A stretch of DNA of 64,000 nucleotides from assembly GCA_947494305.1 (NCBI GenBank), contig CANLUL010000001.1:744001-808000 (forward strand), read 5' to 3'. Shown in pieces: positions 3,857 to 21,189 of this stretch (position 1 is its first letter; each line of letters opens with the position of its first letter). The DNA is from an uncultured Sphingomonadaceae bacterium. Its GTDB lineage: Bacteria > Pseudomonadota > Alphaproteobacteria > Sphingomonadales > Sphingomonadaceae. The position numbers and the translations under genes were made by a program. The notes below the pieces were generated by a model. The model was not told the DNA's origin, ran no database searches, and saw only the letters and a list, made by a program, of their open reading frames with translations.

Positions 3857-5247
<1,391 letters not shown>

Positions 5248-5248
<1 letters not shown>

Positions 5249-19718: not shown

Positions 19719-20117
19719 TTAATCTAGGCTAGGCTTCCCACGCATCTTCTTGACCGAACTTTTTCGCTTCTTTGAATCGACCCGGCGAGCCTTGGCGGCT
19801 CGGCTGGGTCGTGTCTTAATCCGGCGCGCATCACGTTGATGTGCTTCATCTAACATCTCCTCAACACGTTTCCTAGCTTCTGTTCTGTTGGCCTCACGTG
19901 TCCGGTGTTGACGGACGGTCATTACAAGTTCGCCACTTGCCGTCATCTTACTTCCTGCCAGTTGTTTCAGCTTGCGAAAGGCAAATGGGGCGAGCTTTAG
20001 AGCATAGACATTAACGCGTATCTGGACGGCAGTTTCTACCTTGTTGACATTTTGGCCGCCCGGACCGGATGCGGCCAGGAAGGTTTCGTCAATCGCGTTT
20101 TCCGGAATAGAGGCCAT
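19719..20117 (-). CDS. arfB: Alternative ribosome-rescue factor / peptidyl-tRNA hydrolase ArfB
   Basis: A 132-residue ICT1/YaeJ homologue. The catalytic GGQ is in SGPGGQNVNK near residue 18, and the C-terminus is a Lys/Arg-rich tail that enters the mRNA channel of stalled ribosomes. It hydrolyses the peptidyl-tRNA on non-stop ribosomes. It is divergent from ctrA, sharing the 364-base AT-rich intergenic region, and convergent with the bd oxidase operon. Confidence 0.93.
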   Translation of the reverse strand: MASIPENAIDETFLAASGPGGQNVNKVETAVQIRVNVYALKLAPFAFRKLKQLAGSKMTASGELVMTVRQHRTREANRTEARKRVEEMLDEAHQRDARRIKTRPSRAAKARRVDSKKRKSSVKKMRGKPSLD

Positions 20118-20203: not shown

Positions 20204-20292
20204 GGTCATTTTTTCAAAAATAACACCCATTTTGATCATATTTGGTTTTTTGAACTCTCTCAAATCAAAAAAAAGTTAAATTTTTTTTGGCG

Positions 20293-20366
20293 GACTCGGG
20301 AGTCCTGAAACGACTCATTTCTGCGGGTTACAGACTCATTTGACTCTCCGCGACTCGTGTTGAATC
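20293..20366. promoter_or_regulatory. Cluster of seven GANTC methylation sites upstream of ctrA
   Basis: Sites start at 20293, 20300, 20312, 20333, 20342, 20352 and 20362 (GACTC, GAGTC, GACTC, GACTC, GACTC, GACTC, GAATC). Chance expectation is about 0.3 in 74 bases. The last four are 9, 10 and 10 bases apart, i.e. on nearly the same helix face. The first two form an inverted pair GGACTC-GG-GAGTCC. The cluster ends 116 bases before the ctrA ATG. Methylation-sensitive control of ctrA is known for a single GANTC site in Caulobacter; a role for this array is inferred. Confidence 0.75.
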
Positions 20367-20382
20367 CTGCCTTAGGGAAAAA

Positions 20383-20416
20383 TTAACCTTTTAAGTTCAT
20401 CTAATTCATGGTTAAT
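20383..20416. promoter_or_regulatory. CtrA-like half-sites in the ctrA promoter region
   Basis: TTAACC at 20383, TTAAG at 20391 and ATGGTTAAT at 20408-20416 (reverse complement contains TTAACCAT). These resemble CtrA half-sites and lie 66-100 bases before the gene, suggesting autoregulation. Spacing does not match the canonical TTAA-N7-TTAA box exactly. Confidence 0.45.
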
Positions 20417-20481: not shown

Positions 20482-21189
20482 ATGCGTGTGCTGCTAATTG
20501 AAGATGAGCCAACAACAGCAAAAGCAATTGAGCTGATGCTAACAACTGAAGGCTTTAATGTGTATACAACTGATCTTGGCGAAGAAGGCCTCGATCTCGG
20601 CAAACTCTATGATTATGACATTATCTGTCTCGATCTAAACCTTCCCGATATGCACGGATATGACGTGCTGAAGAAATTGCGTGTTGCCAAAGTGCAGACA
20701 CCAGTTCTTATTCTTTCCGGTATCAGCGAGATGGATAGCAAAGTGCGTTCATTCGGATTTGGTGCCGATGACTATGTAACCAAGCCTTTCCACCGCGAAG
20801 AGCTGGTTGCCCGTATTCATGCCGTTGTGCGTCGTTCGAAGGGCCACTCACAATCGGTTATCCGCACAGGCAAGCTTGCTGTAAACCTCGATGCCAAAAC
20901 TGTTGAGGTTGATGGCAACCGTGTGCATCTGACTGGTAAAGAATATGCGATGCTTGAGCTACTTTCACTGCGCAAAGGTACAACGCTTACCAAGGAAATG
21001 TTCCTCAACCACCTATATGGCGGTATGGACGAGCCTGAACTCAAAATTATTGACGTCTTTATCTGTAAGCTTCGCAAGAAACTGGCTTTGGCCTGTGGCG
21101 GCGAAAATTACATCGAGACTGTCTGGGGTCGTGGTTATGTTCTTCGGGATATGGAAGAAGAAATCGGGCCAGAAGCTCAGGTTGCTTAG
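20482..21189 (+). CDS. ctrA: Cell-cycle response regulator CtrA
   Basis: An OmpR-family response regulator whose sequence is plainly CtrA. The receiver domain begins [10 protein letters not shown], the phospho-acceptor is Asp51 in [14 protein letters not shown], the conserved Lys lies in VTKPF, and the winged-helix DNA-binding domain contains [12 protein letters not shown] and [11 protein letters not shown]. The 235 residues are slightly more than Caulobacter CtrA, with a short acidic tail ending EAQVA. It controls cell-cycle or motility-type genes by binding TTAA-containing boxes. It is monocistronic, with a strong terminator after it, and divergent from arfB. Upstream GANTC and TTAAC motifs point to methylation and self control. 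Confidence 0.96.

Follow-up and report, generated by a model that had tools for sequence, protein, structure and literature searches.

The closest described system is the ctrA P1 promoter of Caulobacter crescentus, whose methylated form is bound by GcrA with a footprint from -35 to -10 (PMC3667746). At methylated promoters GcrA, which makes contact with sigma region 2, promotes open-complex formation (PMC7403470). It is reported to prefer the oriented sequence YGAKTCK, with no such preference in Brevundimonas, and ctrA is a predicted GcrA target only in Caulobacterales and Sphingomonadales (PMC7987155). At the Caulobacter ftsZ and mipZ promoters, CcrM-dependent activity requires CGACTC, and ftsZ activity is suggested to increase from the unmethylated to the fully methylated state (PMC3708114). 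Caulobacter ctrA P1 is distinguished from promoters that need an intact GANTC (PMC3667746); a Caulobacter strain with an unmethylatable ctrA promoter has a phenotype that is not abnormal, and cells without CcrM show ctrA somewhat higher, not lower (PMC3973325). For Sphingomonadales, one to five GANTC sites are described in the 300 bp before ctrA, with at least one in all genomes of that paper (PMC8116508).

The window, which is the whole 64,000-nucleotide stretch of DNA analysed, resembles Caulobacter P1 in having a ctrA promoter that bears GANTC, but differs in that P1 carries a single site (PMC3667746) and the window has five conserved sites and two extra ones. Its core shares the CGACTC hexamer with the Caulobacter ftsZ and mipZ promoters, which serve other genes and hold the motif near the start in mipZ and between -35 and -10 in ftsZ (PMC3708114). 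The initial annotation had described seven GANTC sites within 74 bp upstream of ctrA, and a direct count confirms them, with starts at 20293, 20300, 20312, 20333, 20342, 20352 and 20362. The features of the region are listed below; apart from the core, GANTC sites are given without a strand.

19719..20117, minus strand: arfB, the divergent upstream neighbour (NF006718)
20293..20297: GANTC site 1 (GACTC), lineage-specific extra, at -189 to -191 in 3/30 genus loci (window, L105, L110)
20300..20304: GANTC site 2 (GAGTC), genus-conserved, in 29/30 loci
20312..20316: GANTC site 3 (GACTC), genus-conserved, in 30/30; bottom strand fits YGAKTCK by eye
20333..20337: GANTC site 4, genus-conserved, in 30/30; centre varies (G 25, C 5)
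20342..20346: GANTC site 5, lineage-specific extra (window, L107, L110), in 3/30, at two separate tree places
20351..20357, plus strand: CGACTCG core (site 6), with GACTC in 30/30 genus loci; bottom strand fits YGAKTCK
20362..20366: GANTC site 7 (GAATC), mostly conserved, in 22/30; centre varies (A 18, C 3, G 1)
20372..20377, plus strand: candidate -10 region (TTAGGG; TTA in the family), proposed from its fixed distance to the core
20383..20388, plus strand: TTAACC, candidate CtrA half-site by sequence, and alignment anchor
20408..20415, minus strand: ATGGTTAA (reverse of TTAACCAT), candidate CtrA half-site by sequence, present in the genus loci listed
20482..21189, plus strand: ctrA (CtrA equivalog NF045991, 422 bits against a cut-off of 350), the next gene after the array
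4058..5248, plus strand: ccrM, encoding the GANTC methyltransferase (PDB 6pbd, E 2.6e-158)

TTAACC and ATGGTTAA are candidate CtrA half-sites, judged by their likeness to the CtrA site. The proteins that would write and read GANTC are both encoded in this genome. CcrM is the sole PF01555 match at E <= 0.001, and its residues 46-388 align by sequence to Caulobacter CcrM (PDB 6pbd). GcrA is represented by one PF07750 match (134.2 bits), with sequence matches to 5yiu (query 1-44) and 5yix (132-204), the DNA-binding and sigma-binding parts. Among the best 80 of 584 named loci, the nearest CtrA is that of L003, an uncultured Sphingomonadaceae bacterium, at 99 per cent identity, and by this kinship the source organism belongs to the Sphingomonadaceae.

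The density of the array before ctrA is beyond doubt non-random. Some 0.29 GANTC sites would be expected per 74 bp from uniform bases and about 0.14 at the window's own density, and the claim that seven lie far above the roughly 0.3 due to chance was borne out by shuffling: when the 364-bp region between arfB and ctrA was dinucleotide-shuffled 20,000 times, the maximum was four sites per 74 bp, reached 18 times, and 20,000 shuffles restricted to the local 100 bp never exceeded five sites. GANTC is otherwise an avoided word in the 64 kb, with 120 observed against 254 expected from dinucleotide shuffles; such avoidance is reported in genomes with CcrM (PMC3973325). At least four GANTC sites within 160 bp occur at two places only in the window, before ctrA and before ccrM.

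We then asked how much of the array is kept among relatives. The ctrA region was found in 32/32 genus genomes, own included, and 30 loci (own plus 29) were analysed. Sites 20300, 20312, 20333, 20352 and 20362 are intact in 29, 30, 30, 30 and 22 of these, and every one of the 30 has four to seven GANTC sites in the 300 bp before ctrA. Across the five sites, the GA/TC columns vary by 2.2 per cent and the centre by 7.3 per cent, against 22.9 per cent for the rest of the span (n=30). Sites 4 and 7 retain GA-TC around a centre base that differs between loci, as GANTC recognition predicts. Mean conservation drops to 0.61 in the 13 bp that separate site 4 from site 6 (20338-20350). The steps of 12, 21 and 10 bp are invariant wherever both sites exist; in place of the 19-bp step, five loci (L113, L117, L119, L120, L124) have one of 18. 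Retention of five sites in relatives points to an element that probably works as part of the promoter, rather than to chance.

The sites at 20293 and 20342 are not conserved, each being present in 3/30 loci. On a midpoint-rooted tree of 1400 bp from the ctrA start, the -140 site (20342) falls in the window and in a separate L107/L110 pair, and the -190 site (20293) in window/L105 and in L110, a distribution that hints at repeated gain. Since these two sites are lineage extras, neither the run of sites 9-10 bp apart nor the inverted pair GGACTC-GG-GAGTCC, both singled out in the initial annotation, is general. The run exists in the window, where 9, 10 and 10 bp separate the four sites nearest to ctrA, and does not hold genus-wide (20342 in 3/30, 20362 in 22/30). 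The inverted pair is likewise present at 20292-20305, and we rejected it as a binding site, with a site within two bases of 20293 in just 3/30 genus loci.

Placement of the sites on one helical face is suggestive and modestly supported. At 10.5 bp, phasing gives p 0.002 for all seven ctrA sites (0.006 for the best of six periods), a value that leans partly on the two non-conserved sites, and p 0.011 for the last four (0.007); the five conserved sites alone give p 0.056 (0.039). Across 57 neighbouring gaps in family ctrA loci, 24 measure 8-11 bp, where the null averages 7.9 and 24 was reached in 0/5000, but about half of the 24 are one shared pair, the core and a site at -22/-23, and the loci are kin, so the excess is not independent evidence. 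The five sites before ccrM give p 0.41 at 10.5 bp and p 0.002 with the period left free from 9.8 to 10.8. The helical face, claimed earlier for the closely spaced sites, was therefore dropped as main evidence, because the seven-site p value comes partly from sites that relatives lack, and because a period of about 10 is the only one that suits the ccrM array. Conserved-site gaps are 12, 21, 19 and 10 bp at ctrA, 29, 20 and 19 bp at ccrM, and 15, 10 and 9 bp in a third array described below; counted by hand and post hoc, 8/10 lie no more than one base off a multiple of ten.

Beyond the genus, the family set comprised the best 80 of 584 named loci, of which 78 plus the window have 300 bp upstream and 76 plus the window have the TTAACC anchor. 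Aligned in this way, one site of the array emerges as the core, which we identify from sequence as CGACTCG at a fixed promoter position. The core GACTC of the window (20352) starts 31 bp before TTAACC and 20 bp before a TTA. A GANTC lies exactly 31 bp before TTAACC in 29/77 family ctrA promoters, and in 29/29 of these it is CGACTCG. The TTA 20 bp after the core GACTC start is also kept (among the 29 core loci, T 93, T 100 and A 79 per cent), and a second GANTC stands at -22 or -23 from the box in 13/77 loci, the window's being at -21. A simple sigma-70 consensus scan found no promoter at the core. GANTC reaches 15.4 per kb at -200..-110, against 1.3 per kb elsewhere in the same 79 loci, and is the most enriched of 16 interrupted palindromes (111 against 28 in mononucleotide shuffles).

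Where the initial annotation had looked to orthologous ctrA promoters for such an array, the 30/30 genus loci bear it out and most of the named Sphingomonadales loci do not, with zero to three GANTC per 300 bp in 70/78 of them. At least four occur in L003 (4, near the window's genus), L005 (5), L007 (6), L008 (4), L016 (5), L046 (4), L051 (7, six of them within 62 bp) and L067 (4), so that dense clusters recur, with other spacings, in a minority of other lineages. L051 is Sphingomonas kyeonggiensis and L007 is Sphingobium estronivorans, and the spacings in both are unlike the window's. In 23/77 family loci, GANTC is absent from the stretch that runs from 99 bp upstream of the TTAACC box to 29 bp downstream of it, and many relatives therefore manage without one nearby. 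These figures differ from the published range for Sphingomonadales ctrA promoters (PMC8116508), both in the seven sites of the window and in the 23/77 loci without GANTC near the box; the ctrA array is a denser, finely conserved form of those GANTC-bearing promoters.

Taken together, we consider it probable that the array is a conserved, methylation-read GcrA promoter region of ctrA in working order, made of a core plus added reader sites. The proposal that the cluster before ctrA is selected has held up, in that it is conserved, CcrM and GcrA are present in the genome, and the core heptamer sits at a fixed promoter position. CcrM would methylate the GANTC sites of the array, and GcrA with sigma-70 RNA polymerase would read the methylated or hemimethylated core at 20351-20357, the putative counterpart of Caulobacter ctrA P1. 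By eye, only 3/7 array sites match YGAKTCK, the core included. The other four conserved sites, three upstream (20300-20337) and one by the core (20362), would offer extra docking for GcrA and CcrM. Replication would turn all sites hemimethylated together and CcrM would restore them. The extra sites may have an additive or graded role, and the graded switch put forward in the initial annotation is a hypothesis. Because P1 is set apart from other promoters and ctrA is slightly up without CcrM in Caulobacter, the direction of any effect on ctrA cannot be assumed.

The core might instead work alone, the other sites being passengers without array-level function. Its register is the one common to genera (29/77), the number of sites ranges from 4 to 7 across the 30 genus loci, and Caulobacter ctrA P1 has one (PMC3667746). 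Against this, sites 2, 3 and 4 are kept like the core (29, 30 and 30 of 30) despite the drifted 13 bp between sites 4 and 6, and dense arrays with other spacings exist in some other genera (L051, L007, L005, L016). We regard a core that acts by itself as unlikely, if worth keeping in mind.

Two further arrays were identified.

3857..4017: second GANTC array, before ccrM, with five sites and their centre bases at 3857 G, 3886 G, 3906 C, 3925 C and 4013 C, no strand assigned
L162:1750-1847, own contig 2 (tight triple at C2:372264, intergenic): third GANTC array, in the divergent region between M23 peptidase-bactofilin and proA

The ccrM upstream region was found in 29/32 genus genomes, own included, and sites 3857, 3886, 3906, 3925 and 4013 are kept in 29, 29, 28, 29 and 29 of these 29 loci. 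Their centre bases are unchanged at all five sites, and the rest of the span varies by 16.7 per cent. For the family, we took the 30 best CcrM matches from the 198/199 genomes with a match, a set that leans to close relatives, with 27 loci outside the genus. When every pair of the given type in the region is counted, 25 of these 30 loci have a GAGTC pair spaced by 28-30 bp, 21 have a G-to-C step of 19-21 bp and 20 have a C-to-C step of 18-20 bp. The Caulobacter ccrM promoter is most probably methylation-regulated itself (PMC3973325); unlike it, the one here has a five-site array that is genus-wide and in good part family-wide. The ccrM array suggests feedback of methylation on its own enzyme.

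The third-array region was matched in 30/32 genus genomes, own included. The names M23 peptidase, bactofilin and proA are those we presume for the reading frames there. Its four clustered sites are present in 30, 30, 28 and 15 of the 30 loci, with centres that vary; the GA/TC columns vary by 8.7 per cent, mostly at the fourth site, and the other columns by 27.4 per cent. A total of 115 GANTC pairs were counted in the own genome. Among the contig 1 pairs listed, the three-site chains at C1:134565 and C1:1362722 were set aside; they lie in a frame that we take to be ptsP-like and in apparent low-complexity coding sequence.

The centre bases of the three arrays could be read in two ways. The fixed centres of the ccrM array and the core speak for an oriented reader; the variable ones, found in the third array and at sites 4 and 7 before ctrA, speak for selection on GANTC as such. 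Either pattern is compatible with GcrA plus CcrM. Under another reading, the selected reader would be a transcription factor for oriented GASTC (GAGTC/GACTC), with methylation incidental or modulating. Such a factor would account for the unchanged centres at the five ccrM sites (29 loci) and the 29 family core sites, and for a G or C centre in 11/12 array sites against 29/108 others in the window (Fisher p 1.8e-5), a comparison confounded by the coding position of most of those others. It would not predict what the M23/bactofilin sites and ctrA sites 4 and 7 show, GA-TC retained around a varying centre, and the oriented YGAKTCK preference of GcrA (PMC7987155) would explain the orientation without a new factor. 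A dedicated GASTC reader is in our judgement improbable.

The upstream part of the array raises the question of its target. We noted by eye that the upstream block of the window's genus, TGAAAC-GACTC-A-TTCTGCGGGTT, lies on the opposite strand before ctrA in L008, some 82 to 40 bp upstream of TTAACC, with weaker traces of it in L011, L013, L014 and L057, and this block may act irrespective of orientation. Also by eye, the upstream block of the window (20312-20330, GACTC then TTCTGCGGGTTA; compare 20352-20374) resembles the core block of other genera (GACTCG...TTCTGCGGGTTAA), a likeness of upstream to core block that suggests a duplicated promoter unit. The upstream sites (20300-20337) could serve arfB instead of ctrA, given that arfB is divergent from ctrA and that the block is inverted before ctrA in L008; in the window, however, the block is oriented like the core block and some 180 bp separate it from arfB, which would point its action towards ctrA. 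In our judgement arfB is a very unlikely target. Least probable is a patch kept unmethylated by a bound MucR-like protein, protected and not a switch, a reading that we find hard to credit even though MucR occludes some Caulobacter GANTC sites from methylation (PMC5172544).

The preferred reading, a GcrA-read core with added sites, leads to a broader and more doubtful idea: fixed-geometry GANTC arrays at ctrA, ccrM and the M23-peptidase/bactofilin operon might form a distinct multi-site methylation-read element in Sphingomonadaceae, which would read remethylation behind the fork as a graded signal and feed back on the methyltransferase. We put this forward tentatively, as something that we think will probably prove too strong. 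The fixed core geometry and the parallel arrays at ccrM and M23-peptidase/bactofilin were not found in the portions of the literature searched. Studies in Caulobacter concern a one-site methylation switch at ctrA P1, and a genus with arrays on ctrA, ccrM and a likely cell-shape operon offers a natural test of whether multiple sites make the response to replication sharper, later or graded. The combination of CGACTCG with TTA at 20 bp and TTAACC at 31 bp from the GACTC start provides a promoter signature for finding methylation-read ctrA promoters.

The two genes at the centre of this scheme are also neighbours. A ccrM match was not found in three genus genomes and lies on a different contig from ctrA in four more; in 25/25 genus genomes with both on the same contig, own included, the match starts of ccrM and ctrA are about 12.5 to 37 kb apart.
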